A stretch of DNA of 44,694 nucleotides from a virus: positions 1-44,694 of IMG/VR virus record IMGVR_UViG_3300044622_000127. One strand, written 5' to 3'. Position numbers and translations under genes: made by a program. Below the pieces are notes generated by a model. The model saw only the letters and a list, made by a program, of their open reading frames with translations. It was not told where the DNA came from and searched no databases. This document shows, in pieces, positions 19,280 to 44,694 of the stretch (the stretch's first letter is position 1; each line of letters opens with the position of its first letter).

Positions 19280-20188
19280 ATGACCAGACGCGTCAATTAC
19301 CTCAACAACAAAGACATTTTAAAAGAGATACACAAGAGTAAGACATCGTATTGCTCGTTTTTAACACCAGAAGACTCTGATTATGACCTAATCATCACTG
19401 GTGTTGGGCAAATCGAAACTGTAATCAGTGAAGGCAAGTTTGCCCGTGCTGATCGTTTAACCAAATTAGCCCAAGACGCCCAAATCATCGACGGTAAGAA
19501 GGTTAAAGTAGAAGCAATTGACCCAGAATCAATCCCAGTAGACGATATTGTGTTTCGAGTAATGACCTGGGAGCATATTCCAATTGCGCCGCCGTCGCCA
19601 CCAAAAGCCCTTAAAGGTAAAAAGGCTAAGGCAGTAATTATCGAAGACGACAACGAGTTGCTAGTTACTGAATACGATGAGCCTGTTCCAGAAGTCGAAC
19701 CCCCTACTCCAGCAATCAAATATGTTAAAGTCAATTTTCCTCCATTCCAACATTTCCGATTACAAACCAATGTAGACGGCACTTACACAGCCAGGCTTGT
19801 CGGTAAGTCGCATTGGAAGGGCGAATTCGAAACGGGAGAATTCTGTAAAGATCACGGCAAGGCCACTAACAAGCTTGCCCTTATGTATATGAAGCTATGT
19901 GAGCGATACGGAACTCGTGGCAACTGGCGCGGTTACACTTACAATGATGAAATGCGCTCGCAGGCTCTGCTTCAGTTATCGCAAATTGGGTTACAATTTG
20001 ATGAATCAAAGTCGGCGAACCCGTTTGCTTACTACACCGCAGCTATCACTAACTCGTTTACTCGTGTGCTAAACATTGAGAAGCGTAACCAAAACATACG
20101 CGACGACATATTGGAAATGAACTCTCTAAATCCTTCTTATACACGAATGAATAGTGGGTTTGATCAAGGACACGGTTCCGACGAATAA
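19280..20188 (+). CDS. 55: Late-transcription sigma factor gp55, extended form
   Basis: The product has 302 residues. The C-terminal third carries the gp55 signature: KATNKLALMYMKLCERYGTR, then MRSQALLQLSQIG, then NPFAYYTAAITNSFTRVLNI (about residues 195-280). This part corresponds to sigma region 2, which melts TATAAATA late promoters. T4 gp55 is about 185 residues. This protein has an N-terminal segment (NNKDILKEIHKSKTSYCSF) and a Pro/Glu-rich linker at about residues 100-148 (PPSPPKALKGKKAK, VPEVEPPTP). The C-terminus ends SGFDQGHGSDE; it is acidic but lacks an obvious hydrophobic patch like the T4 clamp-binding tail. It is the first gene of the plus-strand early/middle block and diverges from the baseplate cluster, its presumed target. 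Confidence 0.88.
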   Translation: MTRRVNYLNNKDILKEIHKSKTSYCSFLTPEDSDYDLIITGVGQIETVISEGKFARADRLTKLAQDAQIIDGKKVKVEAIDPESIPVDDIVFRVMTWEHIPIAPPSPPKALKGKKAKAVIIEDDNELLVTEYDEPVPEVEPPTPAIKYVKVNFPPFQHFRLQTNVDGTYTARLVGKSHWKGEFETGEFCKDHGKATNKLALMYMKLCERYGTRGNWRGYTYNDEMRSQALLQLSQIGLQFDESKSANPFAYYTAAITNSFTRVLNIEKRNQNIRDDILEMNSLNPSYTRMNSGFDQGHGSDE

Positions 20189-20238: not shown

Positions 20239-21252
20239 ATGGCAAACCTATTTAAGAAAGCAATTATATTCACGGATCTACACCTCGGACTAAAATCAAA
20301 CAGCCAAGTCCATAACGAAGACTGCTTAAACTTTGTTAAATGGGCAATCGAAACGGGTAAAGCAAACGGATGTGATACTTGTTTCTTCCTCGGAGATTGG
20401 CATAACAACAGGGCAAGCATTAACTTAGTCACTTTAGACTACAGTATCCAAGCCCTAGAGCTAATGTCACAAGCGTTCCAGGTGTTCTTCATCCCAGGCA
20501 ACCACGATCTGTATTATCGCGAGAAGCGCGACATACAGTCGGCTGAATGGGCAAAGCATATTCCAAACATCCGCATTGTAAATGAGTTTTTTAAAGAAGG
20601 TGATGTTTCTATCATACCGTGGCTTGTTAAAGACGAGCATAAAAAAATTGAAAGACTACAATCTAAATATTGCTTTGGTCATTTAGAACTCCCACACTTC
20701 TATATGAATGGGATGGTCGCAATGCCGGATCATGGAGAAATTCAGCAAGACCATTTTAAGAATATCGAAAACGTGTACAGTGGCCACTTCCACAAGCGAC
20801 AGCACGGTAAGAACATAACTTACATTGGTAACTGCTTCCCGCACAACTACAGCGACGTAGGGGACGACGAGCGCGGCTGTATGATTTTAGAATGGGGCGG
20901 CAAGGAAGAATTCTTTACTTGGCCAGGGCAACCACGCTATCGTGTGTACAACCTAAGCCATGTTATCAACAATGCCGAGGCTATTCTCAAACCTAACATG
21001 CATGTCCGTGTTAATCTTGACATTGACATTAGCTACGAAGAAGCAACCTTCATTAAAGAAACATTTCAGGACACGTATAAGCTACGAGAGATTACGCTAT
21101 TACCAGTTAAGAAGGAATACGACGGGGCACAAGTTGAACCCGGATCTATCTCTTTCTTATCTGTTGATCAAATTGTAAGTGATCAAATCTCTACTATTAG
21201 CAGCGACCACTATGATCCTAAACTGTTGCTTGACATCTATCGGAACCTATGA
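20239..21252 (+). CDS. 47: Recombination exonuclease subunit gp47 (Mre11/SbcD type)
   Basis: The 337-residue protein shows the calcineurin-like phosphoesterase motifs of gp47/SbcD: FTDLHLG at residues 11-17, FLGDWHN at 50-56, PGNHD at 85-89 and GHFHKRQ near residue 180. The Asp and His residues bind the two catalytic metals. With gp46 it forms the nuclease that resects double-strand ends for recombination-dependent replication. Its length is close to T4 gp47 (339). In most T4-like phages gene 46 follows directly; here the stop overlaps an ATG that opens a remnant of gene 46, and an HNH endonuclease gene is inserted before the intact gene 46. Confidence 0.95.
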   Translation: MANLFKKAIIFTDLHLGLKSNSQVHNEDCLNFVKWAIETGKANGCDTCFFLGDWHNNRASINLVTLDYSIQALELMSQAFQVFFIPGNHDLYYREKRDIQSAEWAKHIPNIRIVNEFFKEGDVSIIPWLVKDEHKKIERLQSKYCFGHLELPHFYMNGMVAMPDHGEIQQDHFKNIENVYSGHFHKRQHGKNITYIGNCFPHNYSDVGDDERGCMILEWGGKEEFFTWPGQPRYRVYNLSHVINNAEAILKPNMHVRVNLDIDISYEEATFIKETFQDTYKLREITLLPVKKEYDGAQVEPGSISFLSVDQIVSDQISTISSDHYDPKLLLDIYRNL

Positions 21253-21313: not shown

Positions 21314-21910
21314 ATGGCTAAGAAAAGAATATTTACAGAAGATGAAATAAAATTGATAGCAGATCCGCAATTATCATTGACTAAGCTAATGGAATTACTT
21401 AACGCTTCTATGCCGACTGTCGGTAAAATAAGGAAATCCTTAGGAGTGACAACAATTAGGGGCAGGAGAGAGGGGGTGTTAGTTCCAGGGCAAAGACGAA
21501 CTACTCATCACATTTGCCAAAACCCAGCATGCCAAAAAGAAATAGTTTCAATTCGCTCAAACCCACGAAAATACTGTTGTCATTCATGCCAGCAAAAAAC
21601 TGCTAATGTAGCAGCAAAAGGAAAAGGGACAAGGAAACTTCGCAACCCAAATACTCCAGAATATAAGAGGTATTCAAGGCTAGTTCACGGGATGAGTCAA
21701 GAAGTGTATAACGAAAACATAGATATTATTAACCCAGAGCGTCATCCACGAACACTATGCGGTGTAGAAGGCGGATGGCAATTAGATCATATTATTCCGA
21801 TTAAGGAGTGCTTTGATCGAGGAATACCACCAAGAGAAGCAGCATCACTAACTAATCTTAGAATGTTACCATGGAAAGAGAACCTTATGAGGCAATACAA
21901 GAATGTTTAG
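21314..21910 (+). CDS. Free-standing HNH homing endonuclease
   Basis: The 198-residue protein begins with a helix-turn-helix-like segment (about residues 8-45, LTKLMELLNASMPTVGKIRK). A Cys cluster follows (CQNPACQK then KYCCHSCQQK, about residues 68-92), likely zinc-binding. The C-terminal HNH core is WQLDHIIPIKECFDRG with NLRMLPWKENL; the HII histidine is the probable general base and the Asn belongs to the second motif. Such enzymes cut a phage lacking the insertion, and repair copies the gene in. It sits between genes 47 and 46, with its own AAGGAG and late promoter box. Its last codons overlap the gene 46 start: AATGTTTAG holds both the ATG and the endonuclease stop. Confidence 0.88.
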   Translation: MAKKRIFTEDEIKLIADPQLSLTKLMELLNASMPTVGKIRKSLGVTTIRGRREGVLVPGQRRTTHHICQNPACQKEIVSIRSNPRKYCCHSCQQKTANVAAKGKGTRKLRNPNTPEYKRYSRLVHGMSQEVYNENIDIINPERHPRTLCGVEGGWQLDHIIPIKECFDRGIPPREAASLTNLRMLPWKENLMRQYKNV

Positions 21911-23678
21911 AATCAAGAACCTTACATGTAAAAACTTCATGTCGGTCGGTAACTCTACGCAGGCAATCAATTTTGATAGACAAGACCTTACCTTGGTTTT
22001 AGGAGAGAACCTCGACTTAGGCGGTGATGACCACGGCGCAAGAAACGGTACTGGTAAGACTACTATATGTAATGCTTTGTCGTATGCGTTTTACGGGCAG
22101 GCACTAACAAATATCAAGAAAGATAACCTCATTAATAAGACTAATGCCAAAGGCATGTTGGTCACTATTGACTTTGAGAAAGACGGAATTACATATCGCA
22201 TTGAACGCGGGCGTCGACCTGGCGTCCTTACGTTGTATAAGGGAGACACAGCATTCGCTACTGAAGATAACGATGCTCAAGGAGACAGCAGAGAGACGCA
22301 AGGCGAGATTGATCGCATTCTGCTTATGTCACACGATATGTTTAGGCACGTTGTTGCTCTAAACACGTACACAGAGCCATTCCTTAGCTTAAAGGCTAAC
22401 GACCAACGAACCATCATTGAGCAGCTACTCGGTATTACAATGCTTAGTGAGAAAGCAGAGCTGCTTAAAGAAGCCATTCGCATTTCTAAAGAAACAATCA
22501 CAAGTGAAGAATACCGCATCAAGGCCGAATCCGAAGCAAATAAAAAGATCGAAGAGCAGTTAGACTCACTGAAGCGCAGGCAAGTTCAGTGGGACGCTAA
22601 ACATACGCAAGAGGTAGAAAAGCTAACTACAGAGTTAGAAGACCTGCTAACGCTTGATGTTGCTACCGAACTCCGATCACACGAATTACTTAAAGAGTAT
22701 AAGGCAAACGAAAAAGCCTTGCTTGATCTAACAGCAGAGTTTAACCGAACAACAACCGATCGAACACGCGAGCACAATGCCGCTAACAAAATTACTAAAG
22801 AACTTCGCGAGCTTGCTGCTAACGTATGCCACTCTTGCGGACAGGAATTTCACGGTGAAAAGCACGAGGCATTAGTCTCTGCTAAAAAAGTATCACTAAC
22901 ACACCACGAAACAGAAGTGAGTGAGATTGATCTCGTCCAAGCAGATCTTAAGACTGCTATTGCTGAAGTGCGAGGAATGATTGGCAAGAGGCCAACTACA
23001 TACTACGACAGGGTAGGCGATGCTCACAACCACAAAACGTCTATTGACCACACTCGTCACCTTCTCGAAGTAAAGATAGCAGAAGAGAATCCATACACTG
23101 AACAAGTAGCAGAAATGGAAGCATCGGCTATCTCAGAGATTGACTACAGCCTTATTAACTCCACTACAAAGATTAAAGAGCACCAAGAGTTCCTGCTCAA
23201 GTTACTTACTAACAAAGACAGTTTTATTCGTAAGCGTATCATTGACCAGAACCTAACATACTTAAATGCTCGCTTGTCCTATTATCTGGATAAGATCGGG
23301 TTGCCTCATACTGTAGTATTCCAAAGCGATCTGAGTGTTAGCATTGAAGAACTCGGTCGTGAGCTTGATTTCGACAATCTGAGCAGAGGCGAGCGCGGCA
23401 GACTAATCCTTTCCTTATCTTGGGCGTTCCGCGATGTTTGGGAATCGCTGTATGAGCCAGTTAACCTACTGTTCATTGACGAACTGATCGACAATGGTCT
23501 TGACACTAGTGGTGTTGAAAGTGCGATGGGCATCTTAAAGAAGATGGCTCGTGATGGGCACAAGAGCGTCTGGTTAGTGTCGCACAAAGACGAGCTAACC
23601 TCTCGTGTTGGTAACATCCTAAGCGTAGTTAAAGAAAGTGGCTTTACAAGCTACAACAACGATATGGAAGCTGTATGA
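21903..23678 (+). CDS. 46: Recombination ATPase subunit gp46 (Rad50/SbcC type)
   Basis: The 591-residue protein has a Walker A GARNGTGKTT (45-54), a coiled coil interrupted by the zinc-hook pair CHSC (309-312), an ABC signature LSRGERGR (from 493) and Walker B LLFIDEL (Asp526, Glu527). It is the SMC-like ATPase partner of gp47, holding and resecting DNA ends. T4 gp46 is 560 residues, so the protein is complete. The ATG at 21903 lies inside the end of the HNH gene in another frame. There is no strong ribosome site, so translation probably depends on reading of the endonuclease gene. The stop overlaps the first radical SAM gene (ATGATG). Confidence 0.95.
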   Translation: MFRIKNLTCKNFMSVGNSTQAINFDRQDLTLVLGENLDLGGDDHGARNGTGKTTICNALSYAFYGQALTNIKKDNLINKTNAKGMLVTIDFEKDGITYRIERGRRPGVLTLYKGDTAFATEDNDAQGDSRETQGEIDRILLMSHDMFRHVVALNTYTEPFLSLKANDQRTIIEQLLGITMLSEKAELLKEAIRISKETITSEEYRIKAESEANKKIEEQLDSLKRRQVQWDAKHTQEVEKLTTELEDLLTLDVATELRSHELLKEYKANEKALLDLTAEFNRTTTDRTREHNAANKITKELRELAANVCHSCGQEFHGEKHEALVSAKKVSLTHHETEVSEIDLVQADLKTAIAEVRGMIGKRPTTYYDRVGDAHNHKTSIDHTRHLLEVKIAEENPYTEQVAEMEASAISEIDYSLINSTTKIKEHQEFLLKLLTNKDSFIRKRIIDQNLTYLNARLSYYLDKIGLPHTVVFQSDLSVSIEELGRELDFDNLSRGERGRLILSLSWAFRDVWESLYEPVNLLFIDELIDNGLDTSGVESAMGILKKMARDGHKSVWLVSHKDELTSRVGNILSVVKESGFTSYNNDMEAV

Positions 23679-24610
23679 TGTTTAAGCTTGAGAAGGTTAA
23701 AGTTCTCCATTTAGAACCTACTACTACCTGTCAGGCTGCTTGCCCGCAGTGTTCGAGAACTATCTATAAATCTAACTTAGTCCCAGCGGAATTAAAGTTA
23801 CATAACATTCAGGCGTTGCTACCAGAAAAGTTTATCAAGCAACTAGACAAGATGTTTATGTGCGGTAACTTTGGAGACCCGGCTGCTGCAAGAGATACGT
23901 TAGAAATATTCAAATGGTTTAAAGCAGTCAACCCATCTATTACATTAGGTATGAATACCAATGGTGGAATCCGTCACGCTAGCTGGTGGGCGGACCTAGC
24001 AGCAGTCTTAACTTCTCCTACAGACTATGTTGTTTTTAGTATTGACGGATTAGAAGATACTAATCACATTTATCGCATAGGTGTAAACTGGGATAATATC
24101 ATGACTAACTCTGCTAGCTTTATCAATCGCGGCGGAAATGCTCACTGGGATATGTTAGTTTACAAGCATAACGAACACCAAGTAAGTGAATGTACCGAGT
24201 TAGCGAAATCTTTAGGGTTTAAATGGTTTAGGTCAAAAGTAACAAGACGTTTAATAAATGTAGATTTCTTAGAACTCCCGTCAAATACAAAAATTAATAA
24301 TGTAGTTAAAGGTAAGATTAACTGCCATGCATTAAATGAAAAAAGTGTTTTATTAAATGCACAAGGAAAGCTTCTTCCTTGCTGTTTTATCAATGACCTA
24401 ACCGCCCGATCAGATTTCGAAATAAAATCAACGCTAGTTCTAAATAACTTAGACTTATTTCAACACAGCCTCAATGAGGTTATCTCAACCTTCTCGGTTA
24501 TTACTGATACTTGGTCAGACTCAGTACCATACTCTGAATGTTCTAAGACTTGTTCGACCCAAGCATTTACTAACCAATGGAAGACTGAAATTTGTTTAAC
24601 TACGAATTAA
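23675..24610 (+). CDS. Radical SAM protein 1 with SPASM-like C-terminal cysteines
   Basis: The 311-residue protein has the radical SAM motif CQAACPQC (Cys19, Cys23, Cys26), which binds a 4Fe-4S cluster that cleaves S-adenosylmethionine. CGNFGDP, MNTNGGIRH and FSIDGLEDTNHIYR fit the family barrel. The C-terminal third has more cysteines (INCHAL, LLPCCFIND, YSECSKTCS), arranged like an auxiliary-cluster (SPASM or twitch) domain. Such proteins often modify peptides, but nucleoside or sugar substrates are possible. It overlaps gp46 by 4 bases, and the next gene, its paralogue, overlaps it by 19 bases. The substrate cannot be told from sequence. The 5'-deoxyadenosyl radical chemistry follows from the family. 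Confidence 0.85.
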   Translation: MMFKLEKVKVLHLEPTTTCQAACPQCSRTIYKSNLVPAELKLHNIQALLPEKFIKQLDKMFMCGNFGDPAAARDTLEIFKWFKAVNPSITLGMNTNGGIRHASWWADLAAVLTSPTDYVVFSIDGLEDTNHIYRIGVNWDNIMTNSASFINRGGNAHWDMLVYKHNEHQVSECTELAKSLGFKWFRSKVTRRLINVDFLELPSNTKINNVVKGKINCHALNEKSVLLNAQGKLLPCCFINDLTARSDFEIKSTLVLNNLDLFQHSLNEVISTFSVITDTWSDSVPYSECSKTCSTQAFTNQWKTEICLTTN

Positions 24611-25710
24611 TTGACGAGTATCAGATTGAGATAACAAACTACTGTAATGCAGCTTGTCCTCAATGTCCGCGAAATAATAACGGGCAAGGTGTTAACCCGC
24701 ATCTTATACTAGAACACCTATCCAGAGATGTCATTAACAAGGCATTTCCTGTGGAATTATGTGCTAGATTACGACAAGTTTTTTTCTGTGGTAGTTATGG
24801 TGATCCTATTGTTCATCCGGAGTTCTTAGACATACTGCGAGACTTCAGATCTAAAAATCCCACATTGTGGCTATACTTTCACACAAACGGCGGAGTACAC
24901 TCTCCAGAGTATTGGACTGAAATTGCAACCATCATGAATGGGTATGGGCAAATTGATTTTGGCATCGACGGGCTTGAAGACACTAATCATTTGTACAGGA
25001 AAAATGTTAAGTGGAGTAAAGTGATAGCAAATGTAAAAGCTTTTATTGCAGCTAAAGGTAGGGCGCAATGGAACTTTATTGTGTTTGAACACAACGAACA
25101 CCAGGTCGAACAAGTTAAAGAACTCGGATACGATATGGGTTTCTTTAATGTGTTAATACGCAACACCGGCCGATTCTTTAATCATAAAACACTAGAAGAG
25201 TTACCTGAATGGCCCGTTAACGATCGGACACCATATAAACTAAAGCCGCCTGTTAATGAACAGTTTAGGAACGCTAGTATGTTGTACTTGCCAAAATTAA
25301 AAGAACAGTATTCCGATATCTACGATTATTTTAGCACCACTGATATAAGATGTGATGCCTTAGCTGGTAAGAAAGTAGCCATTAATGCTAACGGTCTTGT
25401 TTTGCCGTGCAATTTCTTTAATCATAACTTATACGATGAACGATACTATAAAGACAATGTGTTACCGTGTGCAAACGAGTTGAGTAACATTAACGGTAAA
25501 AATCAGGTTAGAGAATTTTTAGAATCTTACGGTCTTAGCAATCTAAACATTAAAAATTATTCGTTAGCTGAGATTTTTCAAAACCCGATGTGGAGTGACT
25601 TAGTAGCAAGTTTTCACAAACCACTTGGAGAAGGCCGTATATTCGAATGCTCGATGACATGCGGATCAAAATTAAAAAAAGTTTGGGATCAAGGAGGATC
25701 TAAAATATGA
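24592..25710 (+). CDS. Radical SAM protein 2, paralogue of the preceding gene
   Basis: The 372-residue protein has CNAACPQC (Cys18, Cys22, Cys25). It shares FCGSYGDP, FHTNGGVHSPEYW, GIDGLEDTNHLYR and EHNEHQVEQVKEL with the preceding protein (CGNFGDP, SIDGLEDTNHIYR, KHNEHQVSECTEL), so the two arose by duplication. The C-terminal auxiliary-cluster cysteines are also kept (IRCDAL, VLPCNFFNHN, FECSMTCGSK). It has about 60 extra residues between the barrel and the C-terminal domain. The start is TTG at 24592 with TGGAAG upstream; no ATG fits the conserved N-terminus. The stop overlaps the dehydrogenase start (ATGA). The two may act as a pair or on related substrates; this is inference. Confidence 0.85.
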   Translation: MFNYELIDEYQIEITNYCNAACPQCPRNNNGQGVNPHLILEHLSRDVINKAFPVELCARLRQVFFCGSYGDPIVHPEFLDILRDFRSKNPTLWLYFHTNGGVHSPEYWTEIATIMNGYGQIDFGIDGLEDTNHLYRKNVKWSKVIANVKAFIAAKGRAQWNFIVFEHNEHQVEQVKELGYDMGFFNVLIRNTGRFFNHKTLEELPEWPVNDRTPYKLKPPVNEQFRNASMLYLPKLKEQYSDIYDYFSTTDIRCDALAGKKVAINANGLVLPCNFFNHNLYDERYYKDNVLPCANELSNINGKNQVREFLESYGLSNLNIKNYSLAEIFQNPMWSDLVASFHKPLGEGRIFECSMTCGSKLKKVWDQGGSKI

Positions 25711-26297
25711 AATATTTAGTAACTGGCGGAAATAGAGGATTAGGGAAACACTTTGTTGAATCGTTAGGAGCAGATAGCATTAGCCGCACAAACGGCTTTG
25801 ATATTACGTCGAGCGTAGCCGCAATTGCTACAAAAAGTCTAGACTACGATGTGTTTATCAACAATGCATTTGATGGGCCACCACACGAGCCCTGGGCAAA
25901 CTTCGGACAGGTTAATGTGCTTCATGCTGTTTACTTTAAATGGGCAGAAGCCAACAAAGCTGGATTCATTATCAACGTTGGCTCGTCTGGTGAAAAATCA
26001 ATTGTTGCTCCGGATCCTTCGTTCGAAACTTACCGTGTAGCAAAGGCTGCATTAGCGTATGCGAGCAAACAATGTACAGCAGCATTCAAAAATAACAAGG
26101 TCCCGTTCAAAACTACACTTCTAACTTTAGACCGGTTAGATACGGAATTAAGTCGAAGTCGCCCAACTTGGACTGGAAATGGATTAAATTTAACGGATGT
26201 CAGTAACTTCGTTAAATATGTAATAACGTTACAAAGCAACACAGTTGTTGAAGAAATAACGTTGTATGTAGATCTTAACCATAAAGAGGTAATTTAA
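25707..26297 (+). CDS. Short-chain dehydrogenase/reductase
   Basis: The 196-residue protein has the SDR nucleotide-binding motif TGGNRGLG (6-13), the structural NNA (52-54) and the catalytic pair YRVAK (Tyr109, Lys113) with Ser93/94 before it. It should be an NAD(P)-dependent oxidoreductase in the cytoplasm. At under 200 residues it is short for the classical family (about 250) because the C-terminal substrate-binding part is reduced. It overlaps the radical SAM gene by 4 bases (ATGA) and the next gene by one base (TAATG), so it is probably co-expressed with both. Its substrate may be the radical SAM product; this is inference from gene order. Confidence 0.85.
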   Translation: MKYLVTGGNRGLGKHFVESLGADSISRTNGFDITSSVAAIATKSLDYDVFINNAFDGPPHEPWANFGQVNVLHAVYFKWAEANKAGFIINVGSSGEKSIVAPDPSFETYRVAKAALAYASKQCTAAFKNNKVPFKTTLLTLDRLDTELSRSRPTWTGNGLNLTDVSNFVKYVITLQSNTVVEEITLYVDLNHKEVI

Positions 26298-26491
26298 TGT
26301 CAATTCATGACGATATTCTAGTAGCAATGGAAACTTACAAAGTCGAGCACGAAAAGTTCGCAGTGAAGGGGGTGATGGCTAGTGCCGCGAGAAGTCGCGC
26401 TGCACTAGGCGACATTGCCAAACTTTGTAAGGCTCGTAGAGCAGAAATTCAAGAAATCAAAAACGCCGCACAAGCAGCAAAGAAGAAGTAA
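26297..26491 (+). CDS. Small basic Hc1-like helical protein
   Basis: The 64-residue protein is rich in Lys, Arg and Ala and mostly helical: EKFAVKGVMASAARSRAALG followed by KARRAEIQEIKNAAQ and a KKK end. This resembles the small histone H1-like (Hc1-type) proteins found in many T4-like phages, which may bind DNA. The match is by composition and pattern and was not searched. It starts one base inside the dehydrogenase stop and ends directly before the nuclease ATG. Confidence 0.7.
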   Translation: MSIHDDILVAMETYKVEHEKFAVKGVMASAARSRAALGDIAKLCKARRAEIQEIKNAAQAAKKK

Positions 26492-27037
26492 ATGGGCGTA
26501 AACGGTAAATCAAAAGGTTCAAGCTTTGAGCGGAAGATCGCAAATCTTCTATCCTCAAGGTTTGAACCCATTACCGGCATTAAGCAAAGCTTCAGGAGGA
26601 ACGCGGATTCGGGTTCCTACTTTGGCGGAACAAATCAGAAACGAGTAGCAACACACGATTTAGATCACGCTAACTTTGGTGATCTTATCTGTCCTAAAAA
26701 CTTTGGGTTCTCTGTGGAATGTAAATTCTACAAGACAGGTCCTTCTTTTACTAGTATAGTAAAAGGGAAGATTACTCAGTGGGACGAGTGGATTACTCAA
26801 GCAAAGCAAGACGCTAAGAACTCCGAAAAGCTTATGATGCTTATCATTAAGTACAATGGAGTAGACGAGCTAGTGTTTGTGGAAGCCGAGATGTTAGGTC
26901 TAACTCTCGTGCTGCCATACAATGTAGTACCTTTTAACACAGTTTATGGTTATCGACTTAAAGACTTTTTAACTCTAACTGACGACAATTTTTTCCTCAT
27001 GGACAACGTAAAAACAGTAGAGATGCCAGCAGCTTAA
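26492..27037 (+). CDS. PD-(D/E)XK nuclease, Holliday-junction-resolvase or RecB-like
   Basis: The 181-residue protein has the ordered active-site residues of the PD-(D/E)XK fold: Glu13 in SSFERKIA, Asp64 in FGDLI and Glu76-x-Lys78 in VECKFY. The arrangement resembles archaeal-type resolvases and phage RecB-like nucleases. It may process branched DNA made during gp46/gp47-dependent recombination. The exact substrate is uncertain, since this fold also includes restriction enzymes. The ATG directly follows the previous stop (TAA-ATG). A terminator hairpin includes the last codons and the stop, so this is the last gene of the block. Confidence 0.75.
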   Translation: MGVNGKSKGSSFERKIANLLSSRFEPITGIKQSFRRNADSGSYFGGTNQKRVATHDLDHANFGDLICPKNFGFSVECKFYKTGPSFTSIVKGKITQWDEWITQAKQDAKNSEKLMMLIIKYNGVDELVFVEAEMLGLTLVLPYNVVPFNTVYGYRLKDFLTLTDDNFFLMDNVKTVEMPAA

Positions 27038-42488: not shown

Positions 42489-44694
42489 ATGGCATTCTCG
42501 ACCGACTCCTTAGCACAAGCCGCGTTTAAGAAACTATTCGGATTAGCACATACCGAAGGTAAGACGTTCCCGTTAGGTAACGAAGGCAACCCAAGCCAGC
42601 TAACAATTATGGCATCGGATGTTTATACAGATCCGATTCCGACAACGGCACAAACAGTAGCAAACACAATTGTTGCTTGCACCAATGCAACTAACGGTCA
42701 GGTAGATAGCTACCTAACAGTAGCTCAGAACTTAGCAATCGCTCCGGACGGCGCAGGTGAGGGTCACGCTTATCTAGTAACAGTGCCGGCAGGGCACGGA
42801 CTGATAGGACTGCCGAATCCGTTAACAGGACTCAACTATGCGCAAGGCGACATAGTAATGTCTATCATCCCAAAGAAGTTCGGCGGAACATGGCGGCCGA
42901 TTCTTTATGACGCAACTAAGACAGAAATACCTCCGCTATCAAGTCTTGACTGGATCATGGACGAGCGTGGCTTCGTTGTTATCCGTGATAATTCTACTGC
43001 GCCTGCGTACTTAGGATGCTGGGTCTATGTTGGTAAGACAGTTGCATCGTGGGGCGGCAGCGGCTACTCAGGTGCAAGCGGTTACTCGGGGACCGACGGA
43101 GTAATAGGAGCAGATGGAGCATCTGGTTACTCAGGCATTAACGGGACTATTGGTGCCGACGGAGCATCGGGATACTCAGGAGCAAGCGGTACATCTGGTG
43201 TAAGCGGCATATCTGGTTACTCAGGTGCAAGTGGCACGTCTGGCATCAGTGGTACAAGTGGCACATCCGGTCTGTCAGGTACAAGTGGCATCTCTGGCTA
43301 TAGTGGCATCTCTGGAGCAAGTGGTACCTCAGGTATTAGCGGATATAGCGGCATTAGTGGTACGTCTGGCATCTCAGGCACAAGCGGAATTAGTGGAACC
43401 TCGGGTATTAGTGGTACATCAGGTAAGTCTGGTTACAGTGGTATTAGTGGATATAGTGGAATCTCAGGCTACTCGGGCATTAGTGGCGCAAGTGGCACAT
43501 CTGGTATTTCTGGTTACAGTGGAATTAGTGGTTACTCAGGTATAAGCGGCGCATCAGGTACTAGTGGAATTTCAGGAACGTCTGGTATCTCTGGTTACTC
43601 AGGAATCTCTGGCTATAGCGGAATTAGTGGAACAAGCGGAACGTCTGGTATCTCAGGGACAAGCGGTATTAGCGGTTACAGCGGCATCTCGGGTTATAGC
43701 GGTATTTCAGGTACAAGCGGCATCTCTGGTACGTCGGGTATTTCTGGTTACTCGGGTGCAAGTGGTACTTCTGGTATAAGTGGATACAGTGGAGCATCAG
43801 GTGCAAGCGGCACATCGGGCATTAGCGGGTACTCGGGAGCAAGCGGTACATCTGGTATCAGTGGCATTAGCGGGTACTCAGGTGCAAGTGGAACAAGCGG
43901 TATATCAGGTATCTCTGGTACTTCTGGTATTAGCGGTACATCTGGTACCTCAGGTATTAGCGGCTACTCAGGAGCAAGCGGCACATCTGGTACTTCTGGT
44001 ATTAGCGGTACATCTGGTACCTCAGGCATCTCTGGCTACTCGGGAGCAAGCGGCACATCTGGAACAAGCGGTTACTCAGGCACAAGCGGTTACTCAGGCG
44101 CAAGCGGAACATCAGGAGCAAGCGGTTACTCAGGTACTTCCGGAACATCCGGTGCAAGTGGTATTAGTGGGTATTCAGGCGCAAGTGGTATTAGTGGGTA
44201 TTCAGGCGCAAGTGGAATTAGCGGATATTCAGGTACAAGCGGAATTTCCGGTTACTCAGGCGCAAGCGGTACATCAGGCGTTTCCGGTTACTCAGGCGCA
44301 AGCGGAACATCAGGAGCAAGCGGTTACTCAGGCGCAAGCGGTGCATCTGGTTATTCAGGTGTGTCAGGCGCAAGTGGTACGTCGGGTATCTCTGGTTACT
44401 CAGGCGCAAGCGGTACGTCGGGCATCTCTGGTACATCGGGTACGTCGGGTACATCTGGCTACTCGGGAGCAAGCGGCACATCGGGCACAAGTGGTATCAG
44501 TGGATACAGCGGAGCAAGTGGCACATCAGGCATCTCTGGTTACTCGGGAGCAAGTGGCACATCAGGTACAAGTGGAATTAGCGGTTACTCAGGAGCTTCT
44601 GGCACGTCAGGCATCTCTGGCTACTCAGGAACAAGTGGCACGTCGGGTACATCGGGCATAAGCGGCTATAGTGGCACGAGCGGGACATCAGGTA
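42489..44694 (+). CDS. Long collagen-like (Gly-X-Ser) fibre protein, 3' end off window
   Basis: The frame opens at ATG 42489 (MAFSTDSLAQAAFKKLFGLA) and stays open to the right edge, giving at least 735 residues. Residues 1-~185 form a globular head-like domain (VTVPAGHGLIGLPNPLTG, GGTWRPILYDATKTEIPPL, GFVVIRDNSTAPAYLGCWVY) similar to N-terminal attachment domains of marine phage fibres. From residue ~190 the chain is Gly-X-Ser in nearly every triplet, with X being Tyr, Thr, Ile, Ala and rarely Val, Leu or Lys. This is a collagen-like shaft. Serine fixed at the third position is unusual compared with animal collagen, where it is Pro or Hyp. The start follows the previous stop by one base. Confidence 0.9.
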   Translation, partial: MAFSTDSLAQAAFKKLFGLAHTEGKTFPLGNEGNPSQLTIMASDVYTDPIPTTAQTVANTIVACTNATNGQVDSYLTVAQNLAIAPDGAGEGHAYLVTVPAGHGLIGLPNPLTGLNYAQGDIVMSIIPKKFGGTWRPILYDATKTEIPPLSSLDWIMDERGFVVIRDNSTAPAYLGCWVYVGKTVASWGGSGYSGASGYSGTDGVIGADGASGYSGINGTIGADGASGYSGASGTSGVSGISGYSGASGTSGISGTSGTSGLSGTSGISGYSGISGASGTSGISGYSGISGTSGISGTSGISGTSGISGTSGKSGYSGISGYSGISGYSGISGASGTSGISGYSGISGYSGISGASGTSGISGTSGISGYSGISGYSGISGTSGTSGISGTSGISGYSGISGYSGISGTSGISGTSGISGYSGASGTSGISGYSGASGASGTSGISGYSGASGTSGISGISGYSGASGTSGISGISGTSGISGTSGTSGISGYSGASGTSGTSGISGTSGTSGISGYSGASGTSGTSGYSGTSGYSGASGTSGASGYSGTSGTSGASGISGYSGASGISGYSGASGISGYSGTSGISGYSGASGTSGVSGYSGASGTSGASGYSGASGASGYSGVSGASGTSGISGYSGASGTSGISGTSGTSGTSGYSGASGTSGTSGISGYSGASGTSGISGYSGASGTSGTSGISGYSGASGTSGISGYSGTSGTSGTSGISGYSGTSGTSG
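43059..44694 (+). repeat. Long Gly-X-Ser coding repeat
   Basis: More than 1600 bases encode Gly-X-Ser triplets almost without break. Higher-order units such as SGYSGASGTSGISG recur. Codons for Gly and Ser are mixed (GGT, GGC, GGA; TCA, TCT, AGT, AGC, TCG), so the DNA is less repetitive than the protein. Spurious open frames occur in other phases. Confidence 0.95.

Follow-up and report, generated by a model that had tools for sequence, protein, structure and literature searches.

In apramycin biosynthesis, C3 deoxygenation of a sugar depends on the radical S-adenosylmethionine (SAM) enzyme AprD4 together with the NADPH-dependent reductase AprD3 (PMC5461906). BlsE, a protein of the blasticidin S pathway, decarboxylates the sugar of cytosylglucuronic acid (PMC3715490), and DesII is described as a radical SAM enzyme acting on a sugar (PMC11434129). 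In phages, the hypervariable region of the pelagimyophages carries radical SAM cassettes and glycosyltransferases that are thought to alter the host O-chain (PMC7029224). Here we describe two radical SAM genes, rSAM1 and rSAM2, and a short-chain dehydrogenase/reductase (SDR) gene that directly follow gene 46 in the virus record IMGVR_UViG_3300044622_000127, the whole 44.7 kb (44,694 nt) of which constitutes the window analyzed. Across related loci, rSAM2 and the SDR form a near-obligate pair, and rSAM1 is a freely assorting optional module.

Pairing was assessed in IMG/VR loci gathered in three sets, each seeded by one of the proteins (rSAM2, rSAM1 or the SDR). At 64 non-redundant loci with an rSAM2 of at least 50% identity, the SDR gene directly follows rSAM2 in 62 and is fused to it in the other two, such that a radical SAM enzyme and a reductase are genetically coupled, in the manner of AprD4/AprD3, in all 64. 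The fusions come in two forms, one of 564 amino acids (aa) (L156, L157, L185, L186 and L187) and one of 589 aa (L191 and L192), both retaining the motifs of rSAM2 and of the SDR; several of these loci derive from the same contigs. Two loci have an SDR without a full rSAM2: in L189 the contig breaks off within rSAM2, and L193, with 43% identity, is a true exception to the pairing. The position of rSAM1, by contrast, is adjacent and upstream in 16 of the 64 rSAM2 loci, elsewhere in 8 (downstream in two of the 64) and unseen in the available flanks of 40. rSAM1 is also found without rSAM2 in at least 15 loci having at least 3 kb of flank on each side. The original prediction had taken the three genes as a unit and had named independent assortment as the result that would speak against it. 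Such assortment holds for rSAM1 and is contradicted for rSAM2 and the SDR, so that the trio was rejected as a single obligate cassette and the pair retained.

Adjacency could in theory be inherited synteny and nothing else, with rSAM2 and the SDR acting separately on unrelated substrates. Most of the loci do share the gp46 site in related phages, and the gp46 and rSAM2 distances are correlated (r 0.64). However, the rSAM2 and SDR distances have a partial correlation beyond gp46 of 0.25, a modest effect attained in 1 of 999 permutations, and the pair co-occurs without gp46 in the locus DNA of L178, where it lies inside a radical-SAM array, and of L190. The pairing also stays constant while rSAM1 and a module with a B12-type radical SAM gene vary around it, and there are two fusion forms. 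Given these points, we regard synteny alone as an improbable explanation.

The genes of the window that bear on the locus are the following:

19280-20188, plus strand: late sigma factor (gp55-like), by family match
20239-21252, plus strand: gp47 (SbcD-like), by family match
21314-21910, plus strand: endonuclease VII-like gene lying in the gp47-gp46 interval; another accessory insertion
21903-23678, plus strand: gp46 (SbcC-like), by family match; left border of the cassette
23675-24610, plus strand: rSAM1, Twitch/SPASM-type radical SAM protein of 311 aa; optional module
24592-25710, plus strand: rSAM2, Twitch/SPASM-type radical SAM protein of 372 aa with a TTG start; core of the cassette
25707-26297, plus strand: SDR of 196 aa; near-obligate partner of rSAM2
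26297-26491, plus strand: Lys/Ala-rich protein of 64 aa with an Hc1-like (histone H1-like) match; not specific to the pair
26492-27037, plus strand: PDDEXK/RusA-like nuclease; right border of the hotspot in the window

In the window, the overlaps are 4 nt between gp46 and rSAM1, 19 nt between rSAM1 and rSAM2, 4 nt between rSAM2 and the SDR, and 1 nt between the SDR and the 64-aa protein. For the three genes, the coordinates, the overlaps of 4, 19 and 4 nt, the junction with gp46 and the motifs agree with the original prediction. Its capsid protein shares 67-70% identity with those of Phosso, Vibrio 2.275, the Pseudomonas phages PA5oct and Paride and similar jumbo phages, so that the window most likely represents part of a large T4-like phage. 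At its far end (42489-44693) the window encodes a long collagen-like protein of SGYSG/SGTSG repeats, which extends past the window end.

Both radical SAM proteins conform to the superfamily, which is defined by a CxxxCxxC motif in a partial TIM barrel: the motif lies at residues 19-26 in rSAM1 and 18-25 in rSAM2, and the structural models match radical SAM structures (Foldseek E 8e-11 and 9e-12). rSAM2 scores above the Pfam PF04055 cut-off of 29.5 bits, at 35.2 bits, and rSAM1 below it, at 20.9 bits; rSAM1 matches phrog_21308, 'radical SAM', at 1.7e-16, and the two families are mutually homologous (hhalign probability 100). Homologues of rSAM2 align from residue 1 or 2, which supports its TTG start. 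In alignments of 35 sequences for each protein, the three cluster cysteines are invariant, as are the C-terminal auxiliary cysteines that had been predicted, four in each case (C217, C236, C289 and C293 in rSAM1; C254, C273, C353 and C357 in rSAM2). These conform to the SPASM/Twitch pattern C-x(9-15)-G-x4-C, as C217-x13-G231-x4-C236 plus C289-x3-C293 in rSAM1 and C254-x13-G268-x4-C273 plus C353-x3-C357 in rSAM2, and thus resemble the ligands of a single, Twitch-like auxiliary cluster in each protein.

The SDR has the two features of a classical SDR, a Gly-rich nucleotide-binding motif and a Ser-Tyr-xxx-Lys arrangement, and its profile matches SDR structures; its score against Pfam PF00106 (21.3 bits) is under the 26.6 cut-off. 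T6, G7 and G11 are invariant in 26 sequences, and Ser93, Tyr109 and Lys113, which include the Tyr109-x3-Lys113 pair noticed originally, are kept in at least 90% of them. Judging by the motif, the cofactor is probably NAD(P)H, and R27, which closes the second strand, hints at NADPH. Because the radical SAM motif and auxiliary cysteines are invariant and the key SDR residues are kept, all three look, on sequence grounds, like real, conserved genes for catalytically intact enzymes, in line with the description of three intact enzymes within one overlapping block.

The reading we favor, with moderate confidence, is that rSAM2 and the SDR are a two-enzyme redox unit for a saccharide, either a nucleotide-activated sugar or a sugar within a glycan, made by the phage or by the host; reaction and substrate are inferred, as are the sequence in which the two enzymes act and the biological role. 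A 5'-deoxyadenosyl radical in rSAM2, assisted by the single auxiliary [4Fe-4S] cluster, would take a hydrogen from the substrate. By analogy with AprD4/AprD3, the sugar radical would end as a keto or dehydrated intermediate, and an epimerization or a dehydrogenation is equally conceivable. The SDR would then reduce (or oxidize) the resulting keto-sugar with NAD(P)H, just as AprD3 follows AprD4. rSAM1, as a related optional enzyme, may act at another position or on a related sugar. The product would most likely decorate a host surface glycan, thereby blocking rival phages, or components of the phage itself.

A peptide, a nucleotide and a surface group had all been proposed at the outset as possible targets; of these, the sugar or surface group is best supported, by several lines that are each indirect and none of them decisive: a homologue in a sugar cluster, a glycosyltransferase overlap, the first rank of the sugar-acting BlsE in Foldseek for both models, and amino-sugar genes. 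No dedicated precursor peptide was found among open reading frames of at least 40 aa. The homologue is the best-scoring bacterial one (L213, 35% identity), which is located between an NDP-sugar dehydrogenase and an SDR gene, directly upstream, and a Gfo/Idh dehydrogenase gene, in an O-antigen-type cluster that also has a PseC-like aminotransferase, WbuX and a glycosyltransferase gene. Few bacteria have a homologue (3 among 379 genomes of one phylum, 2 among 46 of another); at another locus (L211) a GT28-type glycosyltransferase lies several kb off. In the phage locus L190, a glycosyltransferase gene (phrog_1962, 5e-23) overlaps rSAM2 by 4 nt.

Genes suggestive of amino-sugar metabolism were found in 12 of the 14 related phage records searched for both of them, where a full-length DegT aminotransferase is encoded beside an NAD-dependent sugar epimerase/dehydratase; the four cultured jumbo relatives gave no DegT match. 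The locus (L239:6409-8527, L240:6198-8226 and their equivalents in L241, L242 and L243) has a layout conserved in uncultured jumbo phages, with the epimerase/dehydratase and aminotransferase genes followed by genes for large proteins to which no function could be assigned. Nearby, three of the five loci that were read have an amidinotransferase-like gene and three a carbamoyltransferase-like gene, two of the loci having both. The closest solved structures are amidinotransferases, carbamoyltransferases of the novobiocin/GdmN/TobZ type and, for the aminotransferase, scyllo-inositol transaminase. A tryptophan-halogenase-family gene is also present at L239:77-1660 (Pfam E 4e-89). Distant radical SAM genes occur in Campylobacter phage CP220 with an amidinotransferase and two NDP-sugar transferases, and in Pelagibacter phage Mosig with an ArnB-like aminotransferase and a carbamoyltransferase. 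The related records are also rich in radical SAM matches, with 21 in G007 (a 320-kb record), 17 in G006 and 16 in G004, the records of L124, L138 and L038, respectively, compared to 0-4 in the four cultured jumbo relatives. A more elaborate possibility, which we consider rather unlikely, is that a lineage of uncultured jumbo phages makes decorated, aminoglycoside-like amino sugars with genes of its own, which would encode the dehydratase, the aminotransferase, the amidinotransferase, the O-carbamoyltransferase and numerous radical SAM enzymes, and that rSAM2-SDR, at times fused, serves this pathway as a phage-specific radical sugar deoxygenase or epimerase.

Several observations weigh against a saccharide substrate. 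The amino-sugar genes are remote from the cassette (~64 kb away in G001) and are also present where rSAM1 alone (G011) or the SDR alone (G009) was seen, and may therefore mark the clade instead of working with the cassette; moreover, G002-G004 are closely related, so the 12 positive records are not all independent. Bacterial homologues other than L213 have no adjacent SDR, those of L214 and L215 are outside evident glycan clusters, and the window SDR resembles the SDR of L213 no more than generically (28% over 152 positions). The rSAM1 and rSAM2 profiles matched no PDB sequence at E 0.1, and with the threshold relaxed to E 10 rSAM1 gave NifB and MqnE matches alone, all weak. The folds do not discriminate either. 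BlsE is the top Foldseek match of the AlphaFold models of both proteins, yet it did not appear in the profile searches of PDB sequences. In VIA-align, the peptide enzyme SuiB comes first, nearly tied with BlsE, SkfB and MoaA, with anSME, PqqE and ChlB close; DesII and BtrN, which were counted in favor of a sugar, are among the matches. Fold ranking was dropped, on account of this tie, as an arbiter between peptide and sugar.

The SuiB match can also be read as pointing to a peptide or protein substrate, in which case the pair would modify a phage or host protein in the way of ribosomally synthesized and post-translationally modified peptides, with the SDR reducing or oxidizing the modified residue. 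Many members of the SPASM/Twitch class are peptide maturases; SkfB, anSME, PqqE and ChlB were counted on this side together with SuiB, and the NCBIfam matches include models of peptide and metalloenzyme maturases, albeit far under cut-off. On the other hand, the alignment to SuiB begins at residue 101 of SuiB, such that its N-terminal part, which holds the leader-binding domain, is missing in the model, and the L213 homologue lies within a sugar cluster. No conserved small precursor-peptide gene tracking rSAM2 and the SDR was seen among the open reading frames of at least 40 aa in the loci. The 64-aa neighbor is mostly 64-75% identical across other loci, including loci without rSAM2, and adjoins rSAM1 alone in L101, L104 and L109. 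Because it occurs beside rSAM1 alone, it is not tied to rSAM2 and the SDR and was rejected as their dedicated substrate. A peptide substrate is unlikely in our judgment. Weak matches to profile models for heme d1, the tungsten cofactor and MoaA would fit a product outside sugar metabolism, namely a small-molecule cofactor or metabolite that is heme-, quinone- or metal-cofactor-like, but these are again all far under cut-off and no cofactor genes were recognized beside the cassette; we give this possibility the lowest probability.

A nucleobase, for example 7-deazaguanine in phage DNA as a guard against restriction, is suggested by the QueD- and QueE-like genes of L230 (12003-12527 and 18100-18978), which point to 7-deazaguanine metabolism, and by a QueD-like gene ~1.8 kb upstream of rSAM2 in L190 (4635-5075). 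Phage T4 has its DNA alpha-glucosyltransferase near gene 47, which was counted in favor of this idea. The QueD and QueE genes may be unrelated to the pair, however, and the best bacterial homologue is in an O-antigen-type cluster. Thymidylate-synthase-type enzymes, a family that includes base hydroxymethylases, are encoded in only 2 of 19 records, and base modification by them was rejected as an inconsistent trait. A nucleobase substrate seems quite doubtful to us.

In uncultured jumbo T4-like phages, accessory genes cluster in a hotspot at the site where the pair is found, running from the sigma55 gene through gp47, gp46 and the cassette to RusA and the baseplate genes. The cassette is absent from the gp46 site in the cultured phages Paride, Phosso, Atu_ph07 and Vibrio 2.275; Paride has the order sigma55-gp47-gp46-RusA-baseplate intact, and a single gene on the opposite strand separates its gp46 from RusA. 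In the uncultured relatives, the gene set around gp47 and gp46 changes, and includes radical SAM modules, a B12-type radical SAM gene with its ~170-aa partner and SGNH-like genes. The B12-type gene (~500 aa) and its partner, which belongs to no recognized family, occupy the gp46-rSAM2 interval at roughly half of the first 80 loci (L052:5107-7130 and equivalents). Immediately downstream of the cassette, 71 of these 80 loci have a gene for a SegE-type GIY-YIG endonuclease (e.g. L037:9710-10138), which was not seen in the window; it is our guess that such an endonuclease might assist movement of the cassette. Near the cassette in L078 (10860-11402) and L036 (11389-11913), the minus strand carries side by side the genes of an adenine phosphoribosyltransferase and a methylthioadenosine/S-adenosylhomocysteine-type nucleosidase, the latter scoring below the curated threshold of the NCBIfam model that it matches best; the two could clear 5'-deoxyadenosine released by radical SAM enzymes.

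The searched collection of cultured phages has no copy of this SDR and no close rSAM2, even in the named phages with the closest capsid protein, in keeping with the original remark that no described phage pathway with this exact trio was known. No phage radical SAM/SDR pathway was found in the literature either, in a search that mostly did not extend to subscription papers. Radical SAM enzymes with reductase partners are already known, but the sources searched contained no near-obligate, occasionally fused pair of this kind at a hotspot of jumbo phages. With the natural rSAM2-SDR fusion, a phage radical SAM family that so far lacks an assignment can be assayed as a single protein, and the pairing suggests a need for a reductase. 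The abundance of radical SAM and amino-sugar genes in uncultured jumbo phages bears on glycan remodeling as a means to exclude rivals or evade defenses.

Among the known systems, BtrN, SpeY and DesII, which act on aminocyclitols or sugars, are radical SAM enzymes of similar fold but low identity (9-14%), and we know of no SDR fusion of any of them. The CP220 and Mosig arrays resemble the locus in having tandem radical SAM genes with the transferase and aminotransferase neighbors named above; they are only 22-27% identical, their neighbors differ and no SDR homologue was found in them. The pelagimyophage cassettes are not described as a radical SAM/SDR pair and belong to another phage group (PMC7029224). 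BlsE, to which both models are closest in Foldseek, is likewise a radical SAM enzyme acting on a nucleoside sugar, but it is 14-17% identical and catalyzes a decarboxylation, and its abstract describes no SDR partner (PMC3715490). AprD4/AprD3 provides a close parallel, namely a radical SAM enzyme with a dedicated reductase partner acting on a sugar-containing substrate, a likeness of description and gene coupling; in contrast, the phage pair is sometimes fused and is located in a phage recombination-gene locus.

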